A DNA stretch of 64,000 bases from an uncultured Clostridia bacterium (GTDB lineage: Bacteria > Bacillota > Clostridia > Christensenellales > Borkfalkiaceae), in assembly GCA_947624225.1 (NCBI GenBank), contig CANQJF010000001.1, positions 1-64,000 on the forward strand, in the 5' to 3' direction. Below are positions 25,158-36,862 of this stretch, piece after piece (position 1 is the stretch's first letter; each line of letters opens with the position of its first letter). The position numbers and the translations under genes were made by a program. The notes beneath the pieces are model-generated. The model saw only the letters and a program-made list of their open reading frames with translations, made no database searches and was not told the DNA's origin.

Positions 25158-26609
25158 ATGGCGGATACAAAAAAAAGCAAACATGCGCGTGCCTCCGGCA
25201 GCCTGAACCTCATCCTATGGTTCTCTTTCACCGTCTTTGCTCTGATTTTGCTTGTGCTCTTTCTCGCGGTGCAGAGCCTGCTGTTGGGCAGCCGATATCG
25301 CGGAGAGGTCATCACGCAAATGCAGCAGGCGAGCCGTGAGATGACGGAAGTGCTGTCCGGGTCGGAAGAGGGCTTTTCGCTCGCGGTCTGGCGCCGCGTC
25401 AGGGAACTTGAAGATGACTATGACGTGCACTTCCTCCTCTTGTACACGGATGGGCGCAACGTGTTCTCCGACGGTGCGGAGGATGACAGCTACCCGGAAA
25501 TTGCCGAGTCGCTCAAAGAGCGCATCTATGCCGGCGGCAGCGACGTTGTCTTTGTCGAGGGGGATGTCGTCGCCTATGCCTCCGTTGTCACCATCGGCGG
25601 GCAAAATTACTTTCTGTATGTCTCCAACTCCATTGCGCAGGTCAATTCGTTGGAGGAAAGTCTGAGGTGGCTGTCGCTCGGCACCGGGCTATTCTCCGTC
25701 GTGCTCGCCTTTGTGGCGAGCGGATTTGTGGCAATGCTCATCACCAAGCCCGTGACCGAGGTCACGGAGCAGGCCAAGGAGCTTGCGCGGGGGAATTACG
25801 CCCTCGATTTCAAGCGCGATTATTTTTGTCTCGAAATGTCCGAGCTCTCGGATGCGCTCGATTATGCCCGCCGCGAGATCTCCCGCACGGATACCATGCA
25901 GAAAGAGCTCATTGCGAATGTCTCGCACGACTTTAAAACCCCGTTGACCATGATCAAGGCCTATGCCTCCATGATCCGCGAGATCTCGGGGGAGGATAAG
26001 GCAAAGCGCGAGGCGCATGCCGACGTCATCATCGAGGAGGCCGACCGCTTGACGGCGCTGGTCAACGACGTCTTGGACCTCGGCAAATTGCGGGCAGGCG
26101 GGAGCACGGCGCCCGTCGTGTTCAACCTCTCCGAAACGGTGTATAAGATTGTCGCCCGCTTTGATTACCTCTGTGAGACGCAGGGCTTTGTCTTTGAAAC
26201 GGACATCGCCGAGGATCGGTATGTGCTGGCCGACCGCAACCGTACCGAGCAGGTCATCTATAACCTCATCGGCAATGCCGTCAACTATACGGGAGAGGAC
26301 AAGCATGTCCGCATTCGCCTCATGGCGGCGGCAGACCGAACGCGTTTGGAGGTCGAGGATACGGGCAAGGGCATCCCCGCGGAGGAGCAGGCCACCATTT
26401 GGGACAGATACTATCGCAGCAGCGAGGCGCATCGGCGGCCCGTACAGGGCACCGGGCTGGGGCTGTCCATCGTAAAGGAGATTTTATTGCAGCAAAACTG
26501 CCCCTTCGGCGTGCAGTCGGAAGAGGGCAAGGGGAGCATTTTTTGGGTGGAATTTTCTCTTCCGCCCGAGGACGGCGAGGAGCTGCTTGGCGTCGAGGGC
26601 GCAAAATAG
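25158..26609 (+). CDS. Membrane sensor histidine kinase
   Basis: About 483 residues. A first transmembrane helix (LILWFSFTVFALILLVLFLA), an extracellular sensor of about 120 residues and a second helix (LFSVVLAFVASGFVAMLI) are followed by HAMP-like KPVTEVTEQAKELARGNY. Next come the dimerisation helix with catalytic His in NVSHDFKTPLTM and the ATPase domain with N box QVIYNLIGNAVNY, G1 DTGKGI and G2 GTGLGLSIV. It pairs with the preceding response regulator. No good ribosome site exists; ATG 25158 was chosen, with GTG 25146 as alternative. The signal is unknown. Confidence 0.93.
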   Translation: MADTKKSKHARASGSLNLILWFSFTVFALILLVLFLAVQSLLLGSRYRGEVITQMQQASREMTEVLSGSEEGFSLAVWRRVRELEDDYDVHFLLLYTDGRNVFSDGAEDDSYPEIAESLKERIYAGGSDVVFVEGDVVAYASVVTIGGQNYFLYVSNSIAQVNSLEESLRWLSLGTGLFSVVLAFVASGFVAMLITKPVTEVTEQAKELARGNYALDFKRDYFCLEMSELSDALDYARREISRTDTMQKELIANVSHDFKTPLTMIKAYASMIREISGEDKAKREAHADVIIEEADRLTALVNDVLDLGKLRAGGSTAPVVFNLSETVYKIVARFDYLCETQGFVFETDIAEDRYVLADRNRTEQVIYNLIGNAVNYTGEDKHVRIRLMAAADRTRLEVEDTGKGIPAEEQATIWDRYYRSSEAHRRPVQGTGLGLSIVKEILLQQNCPFGVQSEEGKGSIFWVEFSLPPEDGEELLGVEGAK

Positions 26610-26623
26610 GAGGAAGAAAGTCT

Positions 26624-28012
26624 ATGGGGAAGCGACTGGGCGCGATACTTCTCGCGATTCCACTCTCTTGTGCGGGTATGTTTTGTATCCCGCGCACCCA
26701 AGAGGTTTTTGCAGGGACCAAATATCCGGAACGGGCCACGCTCTCGGGGCCCATGTTCTTGCGCGGGGACAGCGTCTCGCTCGAAAGTGAGCGCATCTCC
26801 CTTCGGGTCGACGAGCTCCCCGCCCAAGAGGATGCTCCGATTGCGGGCTCCATGGCGAGCGAGTTTGTGTTCTACAACCCCTCAAAAGAGGATGCCGCGC
26901 TGTGGCTCGCTTATCCCTGCCGGCAGGATACGGGCATGCCGCGCTTCGAGCTGGGCGGCGAGGAGATCTCGTCCGTCATCTCCATGCAAAATTATATCGG
27001 ATACTACAATCAGACGTACGATCTCACAAACGGTGTCAAGCAGATCTTGCGCAAACTCGGCGAGCGGGCGGGGGAGACCTCCGAAGAGGATCCCGTGCGG
27101 TTCTATTGCGACGATCTCAGCGTCAAGGATTATAAATTCTCCATCCAACTCTCGGAGGAGGCGCTGAGCGGGGTGGAGAAAAAACGCCCGCTGCTCGTCG
27201 CCACCTTTGATTGCGACCCCGTAAACACGCGCGTTTTCTCCTGCAACACGATGAGCTATGCGGTCGTCAACGGCCGCCTCGAACTCTCTTTCGAGTTGCA
27301 GCAGGGGGAGAATCAAGTCGGATTCTCCGTTGCGGGGGCGGATATCGAGCACCTCGGTTACACCGTCTATGCAGACCTTGCGCACAGCAAAGCCCTGCCT
27401 GTGCGTGTGTTTTGCGCGACCTATCCCACGACGTTCGGTCAATATGCGCGCTCCTTTCTGCCCGAGAACAATTTCTCCGTGAGCGAGAAAGATTGGGCAA
27501 CGGGCCTCGCCGAGATGCTGGCTGGCAGCACGGTGGGGTGCGTGGCATACGGAAAGCCGTGCAATTTGCGCGCGGAGGCCTTTATGGAGTGGGGGATCTA
27601 TTCCATCACCGTACCCGCGGGCGGCCGTGCCGTCAACACGGTGACGGTGCCCCTGTGCCCCGTCGCGGGGGAAAAGCGCTGGCAATACGATATCCTGCTC
27701 TCCCCGCTCTCGGATTGGGGACCATCCTCTTTCGACATCTCTCTCGCGACGCCCTATCATCTTGCTTACAGCAACCTGCTCTTTGAGCAAGACGGGCAGA
27801 ATTACTCTTTCTCGCGCGACCGCCTGCCCCTCGGCGAACTCACTTTCTCTCTCAGCGAAACAGAGGATAGGGGAGCGGAGACGCCCGATTACAGTCCCAT
27901 CTCGCCCAGCATGAGGCTTGCCTTTATTCTGCTCGGTGTCCTCGGTGGGCTGGCGGTGCTCGGCGGCACCGTCGCGGCAATCGTCGTGTGGAAGAAGAAG
28001 CGCCGCAAATAG
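26624..28012 (+). CDS. Membrane-anchored extracellular protein of unknown function
   Basis: A 462-residue protein with a signal peptide (MGKRLGAILLAIPLSCAGMF...), a large beta-rich outer region and a single C-terminal transmembrane helix (LAFILLGVLGGLAVLGGTVA) followed by basic VVWKKKRRK, a type I topology. There are several Cys residues in the outer region. No known domain was recognised. AGGAGG precedes ATG 26624, and the gene lies 14 bp behind the histidine kinase, so it is probably a co-expressed accessory or cell-envelope target of the two-component system. A strong terminator follows. Confidence 0.8.
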   Translation: MGKRLGAILLAIPLSCAGMFCIPRTQEVFAGTKYPERATLSGPMFLRGDSVSLESERISLRVDELPAQEDAPIAGSMASEFVFYNPSKEDAALWLAYPCRQDTGMPRFELGGEEISSVISMQNYIGYYNQTYDLTNGVKQILRKLGERAGETSEEDPVRFYCDDLSVKDYKFSIQLSEEALSGVEKKRPLLVATFDCDPVNTRVFSCNTMSYAVVNGRLELSFELQQGENQVGFSVAGADIEHLGYTVYADLAHSKALPVRVFCATYPTTFGQYARSFLPENNFSVSEKDWATGLAEMLAGSTVGCVAYGKPCNLRAEAFMEWGIYSITVPAGGRAVNTVTVPLCPVAGEKRWQYDILLSPLSDWGPSSFDISLATPYHLAYSNLLFEQDGQNYSFSRDRLPLGELTFSLSETEDRGAETPDYSPISPSMRLAFILLGVLGGLAVLGGTVAAIVVWKKKRRK

Positions 28013-28029: not shown

Positions 28030-28074
28030 AACATCGGCGCTCCGCGCAAAGCGGAACGCCGATGTTTTAACTTT
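28030..28074 (+). terminator. Terminator of the two-component operon
   Basis: AACATCGGCGCTCCGC pairs with GCGGAACGCCGATGTT (one mismatch) around a 5-nt loop, followed by TTTTAACTTTT. Confidence 0.88.
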
Positions 28075-28237: not shown

Positions 28238-28266
28238 TTGCCAAAGTGTACGACTTATGCTATAAT
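28238..28266 (+). promoter_or_regulatory. Promoter of the TM1266-like operon
   Basis: TTGCCA (28238-28243) and TATAAT (28261-28266) with a 17-bp spacer. The predicted transcript starts about 28273 and carries a leader of about 105 nt. Confidence 0.85.
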
Positions 28267-28270
28267 ACAC

Positions 28271-28378
28271 TCACCTAAACGGGAAGAGCGATCTGACCGC
28301 AAAGGGCACAAACGAAGATCTTTCGCGGCACCGCGGCCGCACTGTCTCCTTTTGCCCTTTGGGTGAAAGGAGTTTTTT
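28271..28378 (+). ncRNA. Structured 5' leader, candidate riboswitch
   Basis: TCACCTAAA (28271-28279) can pair with TTTGGGTGA (28358-28366), closing nearly the entire leader. CAAAGGGCA (28300-28308) pairs perfectly with TGCCCTTTG (28353-28361), and the two helices compete for TTTG. Smaller hairpins include CGAAG-ATC-TTTCG. The ribosome site AAGGAG (28367-28372) abuts the closing helix, so folding could expose or hide it. It does not show the TPP, SAM, cobalamin or c-di-GMP core motifs I know, so its class is open. Confidence 0.5.
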
Positions 28379-28627
28379 ATGGAAGAAAAGCGCATCTGTG
28401 TCCTGTCCGTCATCATAGAAGATCGCAACATTGCGCCTCGCGTCAATGGCTATCTCTCGGAATACGGAGAATACATTGTGGGGAGAATGGGCATCCCATA
28501 TCATGAGAAGCATGTCTCGGTGCTCGCCGTTGTCTTGGATGCGCCGCCCTCCGTCGTCAATGCTCTAACGGGCAAACTCGGAAATCTCGATGGCGTCTCC
28601 GCCCGGTCGCTCTTCGGCAAAGTTTAA
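28379..28627 (+). CDS. TM1266-family putative [FeFe]-hydrogenase regulator
   Basis: An 82-residue protein matching the TM1266 family: YIVGRMGIPYHEKHVSVLAV, then DAPPSVVNALTGKLGNLDGV. The fold is an ACT/ferredoxin-like alpha-beta domain, and members are found beside [FeFe]-hydrogenase maturation genes, with a proposed regulatory role. No hydrogenase or hydE/F/G genes are in this window. Instead a three-gene ABC importer follows, hinting at ligand sensing tied to uptake. The gene is preceded by a folded leader and a strong ribosome site. Confidence 0.85.
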   Translation: MEEKRICVLSVIIEDRNIAPRVNGYLSEYGEYIVGRMGIPYHEKHVSVLAVVLDAPPSVVNALTGKLGNLDGVSARSLFGKV

Positions 28628-28701: not shown

Positions 28702-29778
28702 ATGAAAAGATCGTTTGCTGTTTTCACGGCCGCGCTTCTCGCCGCGGCAACGCTGTCGCTCGGGGCATGCGAGCTCACGCTCCCCGATGCGCCCACCTCC
28801 GACGGTCCCGCGCCCGAGGCCGTCACCCTGAGCGTTTATGCGCCCGACGGTGCTCCCGCGCTCGCCCTTGCGAACTTCATTGAGGACAAGGGGGCTGCCG
28901 CACGTTCCGCCGACCCTCAGCCCACGCACACTTTCACCTATGATATTCACGTCGTTGACGCGAATCAGATCGTGAGCTTTGTGACGGGGGAGGCTCCCAA
29001 GGCCGACTTCTGCATCCTGCCCCTCAACGCGGCCTCCCTCCAACTCGGCACGGGCGAGGCCTACAAGATGGCGGGAACGGTCACCAACGGCAATCTGTAT
29101 TTTATCACGACGGGCGAAAACCCCGCGCTCACCGAGGAAAATCTTGATACCCTCGTCGGCAAAAAACTCGGCGTCGTCCAACTTCCCAATGTGCCCGGGC
29201 TCACCCTCCGCGCAACGCTCAAAGACCATGATATTCCCTTTCAAGTGATCGAGAGCGCGCAGGCACAAGCCGATGCAGCCAAGGTCAATCTCGTGCCCTT
29301 TGCCCCCGATAATGTGACGCCGACGGGCGGATGCGACTACTATCTCGTTCCCGAGCCCGCGGCAAGCGCCAAGATAAAGGGGACGGCCTCCACGGCCAAG
29401 CCTTTCAAGGCGGCGGGGGATTTGCAGGCCATCTATGGCGAGGGGGGCTATCCGCAGGCCGTGCTCGTCGTCAAAAACAGCGTCGTCGAACAGTACGCGG
29501 ATGCGGTGGACGAAGTCGGGATCGCGCTTTCCCGCAGTGAAGATTACCTCAAAAATGCCGAGCCCGCCAAGCTCATCGACCTGCTCGCATCCAAGCGCAC
29601 CGAGGGGCTCACGCCCTCCTTTAACGCCAACAATCTCACCAAGGAAGTCGTGGCGCATTGCTCCGTCCGCTATACGCCCGCAAAGGACTGCAAGGCGGCC
29701 GTGCTCGCTTTCCTGCAAAAACTCATGGAAGTCGACGCGACATCTGCCAAGGTACCCGCAGATAAATTCTTTCTTTGA
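28702..29778 (+). CDS. ABC transporter substrate-binding lipoprotein
   Basis: A 358-residue lipoprotein with lipobox LGAC (about Cys23) and a periplasmic-binding-protein fold resembling the SsuA/NMT1 group: VTLSVYAPDGAPALALANF, a middle VGKKLGVVQLPNVPGLTLRA hinge segment, and a conserved-looking C-terminal helical part. It should capture a small solute outside the membrane and pass it to the permease encoded next. The ligand is not known; relatives bind sulfonates, thiamine precursors or other aromatic cofactors. AAAGGAG lies 7 nt before ATG 28702. Confidence 0.87.
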   Translation: MKRSFAVFTAALLAAATLSLGACELTLPDAPTSDGPAPEAVTLSVYAPDGAPALALANFIEDKGAAARSADPQPTHTFTYDIHVVDANQIVSFVTGEAPKADFCILPLNAASLQLGTGEAYKMAGTVTNGNLYFITTGENPALTEENLDTLVGKKLGVVQLPNVPGLTLRATLKDHDIPFQVIESAQAQADAAKVNLVPFAPDNVTPTGGCDYYLVPEPAASAKIKGTASTAKPFKAAGDLQAIYGEGGYPQAVLVVKNSVVEQYADAVDEVGIALSRSEDYLKNAEPAKLIDLLASKRTEGLTPSFNANNLTKEVVAHCSVRYTPAKDCKAAVLAFLQKLMEVDATSAKVPADKFFL

Positions 29779-29786
29779 GGGATGAT

Positions 29787-30542
29787 TTGAAGCGCGCATT
29801 GTTGAAAAATTTCGCACTTTCCGTGGCGGCGGTCCTCACCATGCTCTTGGTGTGGGTCGTCGCCTACTTTGTCGTGCGCAACGACTATGTGTTGCCCTCG
29901 CTTTCGGAGACATGCCGCGAAGTGGGCAGACTATTTTCCGAGGCCGACTTTTGGATGGCATTTTCGAACACGCTCCTCCGCACGGCCGTGGCCTTTTTGG
30001 TTGCGCTCGTCTTGGGGATCGTACTCGCTCTGATCGCCAACCTTTGGACATGGGTACGGGCTTTTCTGTCTCCCATCGTCTCTGTGCTCCGCACCGTCCC
30101 CACGATGGCGGTCATTCTGATGCTGCTTCTGTGGACAACGCCGCGCGTCGCACCCGTCATCGTCTCTCTGTTGGTGCTCATGCCGGCCGTCTATGCTACA
30201 ACGCTTTCGAGCCTCAACGAGGTCACGGCGGAATACGGCGTTCTCGCGCAGACCTTTCGCATCCCGGCATGGAAACGCGCATGGAAGATGTATCTTCCCC
30301 TCGTTGCGCCCCCCGTTTTCGGACAGGCCGGTTCCATTTTCTCAATGGGGCTCAAAATCACCGTATCGGGAGAAGTGCTTTCCAACACATTCCAAAGTCT
30401 CGGCGGCATGATGCAGGAGGCCAAGATGTTTGTGATGATGCCCCGTTTGATGGCGCTCACGCTCAGCACGGTCGTGGTCGGCTTTTTGCTTGAAGCCGTT
30501 TGCCTGCTTATCTATAAGCTCATCGTGAGGTGGAGAGGATGA
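29787..30542 (+). CDS. ABC transporter permease
   Basis: A roughly 251-residue inner-membrane protein with about six transmembrane helices and the SsuC/TauC-like EAA loop around YGVLAQTFRIPAWKRAWKMY. It forms the channel of the importer. The start is uncertain: TTG 29787, 4 nt after GAGGGA, is preferred to TTG 29775, which overlaps the stop of the previous gene. Its end overlaps the ATPase start by 4 bp, so the two are translationally coupled. Confidence 0.9.
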   Translation: MKRALLKNFALSVAAVLTMLLVWVVAYFVVRNDYVLPSLSETCREVGRLFSEADFWMAFSNTLLRTAVAFLVALVLGIVLALIANLWTWVRAFLSPIVSVLRTVPTMAVILMLLLWTTPRVAPVIVSLLVLMPAVYATTLSSLNEVTAEYGVLAQTFRIPAWKRAWKMYLPLVAPPVFGQAGSIFSMGLKITVSGEVLSNTFQSLGGMMQEAKMFVMMPRLMALTLSTVVVGFLLEAVCLLIYKLIVRWRG

Positions 30543-31207
30543 AACTCGAAAATGTTTGCAAGCGTTACGGCGAAAAACTTGCCCTCGATGGGATCACCTT
30601 GGAGATCGAAAGGGGAAGAATTACCGCCGTCCTCGGGGAAAGCGGAGCGGGAAAGACCACGCTTCTCAACGTGCTCGCCGATTTGGTGCCTTTCGACGGC
30701 AGTAAGAAAGATTTTCCCGCCGTTTCCTATCTCTTTCAGGACGACAAACTTTTGCCCAATCTTACGGTGGAAAAGAACTTGCGCCTTGTTTTGGACAAAA
30801 GCCGGTGGGGGGAGATTGGCCCCATGCTCGGGAAAGTGGGGCTTGCGGGCAAAGAAAAACGCTACCCCAATTCTCTATCGGGCGGCGAGCGGCGGCGCGT
30901 GGCCATTGCCCGTGCCTTTCTCTATCCGCACGGACTTCTTTTGATGGACGAACCATTCTCTTCCCTCGACCTCTCCCTCAAAAAGACGCTCATCGAGCTC
31001 GTCGCCTCCCTCTGGCGGGAGCGTGGGGATACCGTCGTATTCGTGACCCACGATGTCCGCGAAGCCACGCTTCTCTCGCATCGCGCGGTTGTTCTCAAAG
31101 GGGGGCGGATCGTTGCAGACCACAGGATCTCGGGAGAACCCCCGCGGGATTTCTATGCCGAATGCCCGGAAACCCAATGGCTGATCCGCTCTCTGATGAA
31201 TTCCTGA
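30539..31207 (+). CDS. ABC transporter ATPase
   Basis: A 222-residue ATPase of the nitrate/sulfonate/taurine type. Walker A GESGAGKTT, Q-loop in YLFQDDKLLPNLTV, signature LSGGERRRVAIARAF, Walker B LLMDEPFSSLD and switch His in VFVTHDVREA are all present. It powers the importer formed with the preceding permease and lipoprotein. ATG 30539 overlaps the permease stop in the ATGA arrangement. Confidence 0.94.
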   Translation: MKLENVCKRYGEKLALDGITLEIERGRITAVLGESGAGKTTLLNVLADLVPFDGSKKDFPAVSYLFQDDKLLPNLTVEKNLRLVLDKSRWGEIGPMLGKVGLAGKEKRYPNSLSGGERRRVAIARAFLYPHGLLLMDEPFSSLDLSLKKTLIELVASLWRERGDTVVFVTHDVREATLLSHRAVVLKGGRIVADHRISGEPPRDFYAECPETQWLIRSLMNS

Positions 31208-36650: not shown

Positions 36651-36855
36651 AACGGACGGCATGCGCCGTCCGTTCAAGCATCGAGCTTGTCGAAAGCGCT
36701 CCACCGAAAGGTGACAGGGATACGGATCTTCTCGCATACCCCCAACGCGCCCGTGGGGAGGGGCACATTTCGGCGGCCGGGCCCTTTTCTCATGCGTTCT
36801 TCGGAATTCCCCGTTCCTCGCGCAGAGTACTCATGCAGGGCCGCTCCTCTTTTGA
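36651..36855 (-). promoter_or_regulatory. Lysine riboswitch (L-box) with expression hairpin
   Basis: On the minus strand the leader opens AGAGGAGCGG (rc of 36841-36850) and continues to an AGTACT core, a GAATTCCGAAG segment, GCCGAAATG, CCCTGTCACC and TGGAGCGCTTTCG, matching the conserved blocks of the L-box aptamer in order. It ends with a perfect hairpin AACGGACGGC/GCCGTCCGTT (36651-36674) about 15 nt before the ribosome site of asd, which could act as terminator or by hiding initiation. Lysine should turn the operon off. Confidence 0.88.
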
Positions 36856-36862
36856 CGCAAAT

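Follow-up and report, generated by a model that had tools for sequence, protein, structure and literature searches.

A small attenuator RNA of Clostridia that probably governs [FeFe]-hydrogenase cofactor supply

In vitamin riboswitches, such as those for TPP, cobalamin and preQ1, a single RNA governs how a cofactor is both made and imported, including import through ECF S-components. In the attenuators of PyrR and LicT/SacY, a short hairpin competes with a terminator and the gene for the protein often lies in the controlled operon. The import of nickel for [NiFe] hydrogenase is under the control of NikR. The HMP-PP riboswitch (thiS motif) has its aptamer inside the terminator stem, with a pseudoknot, and its genes make the thiazole of thiamin (PMC6478431). 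For [FeFe] hydrogenases, ciliates possess the enzyme with no HydE, HydF or HydG detected (PMC6993867), and apo-hydrogenase was activated without these maturases in living E. coli supplied with synthetic [2Fe]adt (PMC6984386).

We analysed a leader in a stretch of 64,000 nucleotides (the window, to which all coordinates refer) from an uncultured Clostridia bacterium, where a sequence-only reading had proposed an unclassified riboswitch-like leader before a TM1266-like gene. Our results indicate that it is quite probably, whatever its effector, an attenuator RNA controlling the supply of the H-cluster (the diiron cofactor) of [FeFe] hydrogenase.

Architecture and conservation of the leader

A sigma-A-type promoter, TTGCCA-N17-TATAAT, occupies 28238–28266 (+), with 11 of 12 consensus positions and a TG ahead of the −10 element. 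As the sequence-only reading had held, it sets the RNA start at the left edge of the leader: the predicted start falls at ~28272–28274, on the first base (28274) of a 32-nt hairpin. This hairpin, the sensor core (28274–28305, +), has the sequence CCU-AAA-CGG-GA-AGA-GCGA-UCU-GA-CCG-CAA-AGG and contains three 3-bp helices, P1 (28274–28276/28303–28305), P2 (28280–28282/28297–28299) and P3 (28285–28287/28292–28294), capped by a terminal loop at 28288–28291. The internal loops are AAA/CAA between P1 and P2 (3x3) and GA/GA between P2 and P3 (2x2). Two homology (covariance) models of the hairpin, R1 and R2, matched it at exactly these coordinates with 42.0 and 40.1 bits, respectively. A variable spacer hairpin predicted at 28325–28340 (+), with a counterpart at the same place in most relatives and no conserved sequence, separates it from the expression platform. 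The latter comprises an intrinsic terminator at 28346–28378 (+), formed by 12 bp (28346–28357 with 28361–28372), a 3-nt loop and TTTTTT. The ribosome-binding site AAAGGAG lies in its right arm, and the ATG at 28379 comes directly after TTTTTT. The genes that follow on the same strand are those announced by the earlier reading, a TM1266-family gene and an ABC importer: an 82-aa TM1266 protein (28379–28627; PF21699 and TIGR03959, the latter with 96.6 bits against a curated cut-off of 60.8, which places it within the family), a substrate-binding lipoprotein (SBP) with an NMT1/THI5-type fold recognised by profile match and predicted structure (28702–29778), a permease (29775–30542, PF00528) and an ATPase (30530–31207, PF00005).

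Upstream of the leader, the window encodes a predicted membrane-anchored protein of 473 aa (26591–28012, +) matching no Pfam or NCBIfam family, followed on the minus strand by a hairpin of 16 pairs that resembles a terminator and has a T-run (28030–28066) and an adjoining perfect TTGACA-17-TATAAT promoter (28159–28131). Further downstream lies a lysine riboswitch of textbook form (RF00168, 87 bits; 36686–36859, −).

To predict the switch fold, the nascent leader of the window was folded stepwise with nearest-neighbour energies. The minimum free energy (MFE) structure is the sensor hairpin at 70–75 nt, an antiterminator that breaks P1 at 80–95 nt (where keeping P1 costs up to 8.9 kcal/mol), and sensor plus terminator from 100 nt onward. 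The antiterminator pairs CAAAGGGCA (28300–28308, +), which overlaps the 3' strand of P1, with TGCCCTTTG (28353–28361, +), which overlaps the terminator. It thus uses strands of both the closing helix of the sensor and the terminator, making these helices mutually exclusive. The earlier suggestion that two long helices compete for the same TTTG next to the ribosome site is borne out, as both are predicted to use one pyrimidine arm there. From the predicted order of folding, any factor keeping P1 closed during polymerase passage through 80–95 nt would lead to termination. We propose that the nascent RNA would first fold the 32-nt hairpin and that an effector would then hold P1 shut, leaving its downstream strand unavailable for the antiterminator and allowing the terminator to form. 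Transcription would stop before the start codon, and the same terminator hairpin would also hide the ribosome site, turning the genes OFF at sufficient supply. With no effector, the antiterminator would win and the genes would be ON. This OFF direction of the response is the one that the switch geometry suggests.

The folding stability of the leader is only modestly unusual by itself (z −2.1 to −2.4); at the level of sequence, its proof is comparative and comes from conserved leaders, covariation and own versus swapped antiterminator duplexes. The hairpin is kept in TM1266 leaders of the same genus and family. When leaders of other TM1266 genes were aligned for compensatory changes, the check that the earlier reading had called for, strong covariation appeared. 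In a 35-sequence alignment, 97.8% of the pair cells were standard pairs and 42 cells were double-changed, compared with 12 in shuffles, and in a set of 52 diverse sequences 97.0% of cells were paired, with 91 double-changed cells against 23.1 ± 3.7 in shuffles; sliding the partner by one column in this second set lowered pairing to ≤60%. P1 occurs as CCU/AGG, UCU/AGA, CCC/GGG and UUU/AAA, and P2 as CGG/CCG, CUA/UAG, CAG/CUG, UUU/AAA, GUA/UAC and GGU/ACC. In the expression platform, a terminator-like hairpin precedes the ATG in all 61 relatives' leaders examined, and across these 61 leaders the own antiterminator duplexes were stronger than duplexes swapped between leaders (−10.9 versus −9.2 kcal/mol, p = 3e-7). 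Before some SBP genes we found a second leader type with no terminator, in which a UUU/AAA P1 extends into the ribosome site, pointing to control at the level of translation.

A short inverted repeat located at a transcription start could also be the DNA operator of a repressor. This explanation is very improbable here: the hairpin pairs include 39 G-U against 2 A-C mismatches, which shows the element to function as sense-strand RNA, its asymmetric internal loops are conserved, and a terminator and antiterminator are linked to it. The leader joins a conserved, covarying sensor to an expression platform, the combination expected of a functional riboswitch, and the riboswitch-like layout seen in the sequence stands to that extent; as a riboswitch in the strict sense it is a candidate, since TM1266 itself may be the partner of the RNA. 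A covariance search of Rfam 15 with strict and permissive thresholds gave no family matching the window leader or ten distant homologues, in agreement with the earlier impression that no known class fits. With no Rfam match and no description found among open-licence papers, this RNA family is apparently new.

Distribution of the RNA and the genes it precedes

Of 297 genomes of the order, 53 matched model R1 for the hairpin, although some of the weaker matches were due to chance; R1 also found the hairpin at TM1266 genes outside the order. The loci have the form RNA-TM1266-SBP-permease-ATPase, in the window's family and in several other families; RNA-SBP-permease, with the ATPase present or absent and no adjacent TM1266 (L118, L124, L125, L270–L273 and L277); or RNA-TM1266-hydE-hydG-hydF (L115, L123 and L122, in which hydF lies at the end of the contig). 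A scan by pattern of 84,980 species genomes returned 80 loci: 61 of them precede TM1266-ABC or ABC genes, 4 precede hyd genes, 3 sit at the end of a contig and 12 were rejected as chance, including one (L198) inside a Bacteroidales hydG gene. The named organisms were Candidatus Gallimonas (the genus of the window) and two strains with RNA-TM1266-ABC loci (L218 and L240), Pumilibacter muris CLA-AA-M08 and Anaerocaecibacter muris CLA-AA-M11. In a phylum-wide sample of 110 TM1266 loci, counting R2 matches outside the training loci of that model, 48 of 53 lay on the same strand as TM1266 or hydG and ≤350 nt upstream of it (p ~5e-46), one of the 48 spanning the called gene start instead of lying upstream. 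With training loci included, the RNA was detected at 46 of the 110 loci. Scanning whole genomes with R2 brought to light further leaders, those of hydG, hydE, hydF and another ABC importer; L099 is a hydG leader. The RNA also precedes an ECF S-component gene (PF12822, 32.4 bits) in three genomes of one genus (L424, L426 and L428).

Taken together, the regulon is one of H-cluster supply, consisting of hydE, hydF, hydG, TM1266 and the NMT1-type ABC importer, joined in three genomes by the ECF S-component, and the placing of synthesis and uptake genes under one RNA is the pattern of cofactor feedback. The three genomes with the S-component also carry the RNA before hydG, raising the question whether the S-component belongs to another kind of importer that takes up this cofactor or part of it. 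Matches of R1 or R2 in coding regions or at unrelated genes were discarded as chance (L094, L101, L398, L403, L404, L409, L411–L413, L419–L422, L430 and L435). Within the window's own family, genera g2, g13, g16 and g17 keep the TM1266-ABC genes with no RNA detected at the locus. The TM1266 leaders of genus g2 (L037, L042 and L054) carry a different-looking element, CTGAATCGATGATTTTTCGGAGAGGAAGCGC plus a GCGCATACC hairpin, that both models missed and that could be a diverged form.

Hydrogenases without maturases, and the importer

HydG scored above its cut-off in none of 151 genomes of the window's family, including that of the window (98% complete). Likewise, no family genome exceeded the cut-offs for HydF or HydE in panels of 73 and 69 genomes, respectively; HydE and HydF did so only in G264, G721 and G849, the tested genomes with RNA-TM1266-hydEGF loci. 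Hydrogenase was present in 68 of 73 genomes tested. The window genome encodes one [FeFe] hydrogenase, a catalytic enzyme of full group A6 type (NF040763, 797 bits against a cut-off of 765), with the H-cluster motifs TSCCPGW, IPCTAKKYE and EIMACPGGC. According to profile searches, on which these co-occurrence counts rest, the importer SBP occurs in 50 of 51 hydrogenase-bearing and none of 5 hydrogenase-less genomes among 56 of the family; G071 has hydrogenases and no detected SBP. The order SBP-permease-ATPase-HydA is found in G085, G100, G112 and G128, and G117 has HydA-RNA-TM1266-SBP-permease-ATPase-HydA. Outside the order, one locus (L374:941–4548) has TM1266-SBP-permease-ATPase followed by a HydE-like radical SAM protein (TIGR03956, 180 bits against a cut-off of 255).

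The SBP (28702–29778) matched no Pfam or NCBIfam family and has a second invariant Cys in addition to that of the lipobox. It gave a profile match to 3hn0 (E 1e-24), and its predicted structure (pLDDT 88.6) retrieved in Foldseek 3hn0, PqqT, TauA and the pyrimidine (thiamine)-precursor binder 3ix1; the best NCBIfam match of the permease was SaoP, far under the cut-off. This fold is common to binders of many unrelated ligands, so that the Foldseek search reveals no cargo, which has to be read from gene context. In several genomes the SBP appears circularly permuted, with the YPQA C-terminal half before the APDGAPAL half in one reading frame (G034 C17, G045 C14, G099 C1, G120 C33, G156 C16, G231 C4 and G345 C8; L189, L196 and L229).

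From gene context and co-occurrence, we infer that the importer brings in the diiron precursor or part of it. Because the same fold binds thiamine precursors, sulfonates and PQQ, the cargo might instead be a compound merely correlated with hydrogenases (a thiamine precursor, an iron chelate or a redox cofactor), and the RNA would then sense that compound or the general redox or iron state. We consider this unlikely, as the same RNA precedes hydE, hydF and hydG, importer and HydA share one operon in several genomes, and none of the five hydrogenase-less relatives yielded the importer. The ciliate and E. coli precedents make it chemically plausible that a diiron precursor is imported. In genomes with maturases the RNA would control TM1266, hydE, hydG and hydF, and in Gallimonas and its relatives, which have catalytic-type [FeFe] hydrogenases and no maturases, the NMT1-type ABC importer. 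As a tentative extension, for which we would give clearly less than even chances, maturase-less gut Clostridia may live in an H-cluster salvage economy, importing through this dedicated importer diiron precursor released by neighbours, with TM1266, a NikR-like sensor acting on RNA, gauging supply in salvagers and synthesisers alike. Our literature search of open-licence papers found no report of maturase-less hydrogenases with an importer.

TM1266 and the effector of the switch

The AlphaFold model of the window TM1266 (pLDDT 96) had 2nzc as best Foldseek match, followed by NikR sensor domains, and with high confidence the protein is predicted to adopt the NikR C-terminal/ACT-like sensor fold and to lack a DNA-binding domain. 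Residues R5, N23, G35, R36, G38, P40, G65 and G68 are invariant, and positions 66 and 76 are near-invariantly basic. Within the family, 35 of 40 TM1266-bearing genomes checked carried the RNA at the importer or TM1266-importer locus, versus none of 9 TM1266-less genomes (p = 1e-6, uncorrected for phylogeny, the correlation being phylogenetically clustered), absence counts being limited by the sensitivity of a 32-nt model and including five TM1266-bearing loci with no detectable RNA. Two of the nine TM1266-less genomes (G062 and G111) were also negative in a whole-genome R1 scan, the other seven having been checked at the importer locus; all nine keep importer and hydrogenase. Genera 3 and 8 contain genomes with and without TM1266, and the RNA tracks TM1266 in each. 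In genomes whose TM1266 gene lies away from the ABC genes, the RNA is found with the ABC genes.

This co-occurrence makes us lean towards TM1266 as the partner of the RNA over a stand-alone riboswitch. The most likely effector, with chances that we put at about even, is TM1266 itself, perhaps together with a ligand related to the cofactor: the protein would bind the hairpin, autoregulate its operon and control maturases or importer in trans. The retention of the RNA at ABC genes with a distant TM1266, the invariant R5, N23 and R36, the basic positions 66 and 76, and the resemblance to nickel-sensor domains shorn of their DNA-binding part all argue for such a role; against it, many TM1266 genes have no detectable RNA, and we know of no RNA-binding precedent in this fold family. 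Alternatively, and with a somewhat smaller probability, the 32-nt hairpin alone may bind a small molecule tied to H-cluster synthesis, such as the diiron precursor, the HydG product or a metabolite (tyrosine, p-cresol or cyanide/CO species), TM1266 being merely a controlled gene. The strong conservation of the internal loops (second A of AA in 52/52 sequences, GA in 48/52 and 49/52), the tandem hairpin copies 44–50 nt apart in many leaders, and a regulon that joins biosynthesis with ABC and ECF importers would fit such a riboswitch. However, the hairpin is very small, and none of the nine TM1266-less genomes checked has it at the importer, although they keep importer and hydrogenase. No report tying TM1266, hydE or hydG to a regulatory RNA was found among open-licence papers.

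With this leader, [FeFe]-hydrogenase maturation gains a regulatory RNA, and TM1266, a "putative regulator" in family databases whose target was unreported in the papers searched, gains a concrete hypothesis. It also becomes testable how bacteria with catalytic-type [FeFe] hydrogenases and no HydE, HydF or HydG obtain their H-cluster. If the importer carries the diiron precursor, an organometallic cofactor would pass between gut microbes, and hydrogenases could be produced in the absence of maturases by combining the importer with apo-hydrogenase. Should the salvage reading be proven, it would amount to categorically new biology.

Among described systems, the RNA resembles the HMP-PP riboswitch in its very small sensor, its use of a terminator and its position ahead of cofactor supply genes, but its sensor (28274–28305) is separate from and upstream of the terminator (28346–28378). 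The thiS/HMP-PP class was rejected on this difference in architecture and on the genes, which are TM1266, hydE/F/G and importers and not thiS/HET-P. As in the PyrR and LicT/SacY attenuators, a short hairpin is set against a terminator and the gene of the candidate protein is often in the operon, although TM1266 is unrelated to those proteins and its RNA binding is putative. The TM1266 model matches the C-terminal domains of NikR, but it lacks the ribbon-helix-helix DNA-binding part and its target looks like RNA. Finally, unlike the vitamin riboswitches, the RNA matches no Rfam class in sequence or structure, yet like them it spans the synthesis and uptake of one cofactor, down to the inclusion of an ECF S-component.
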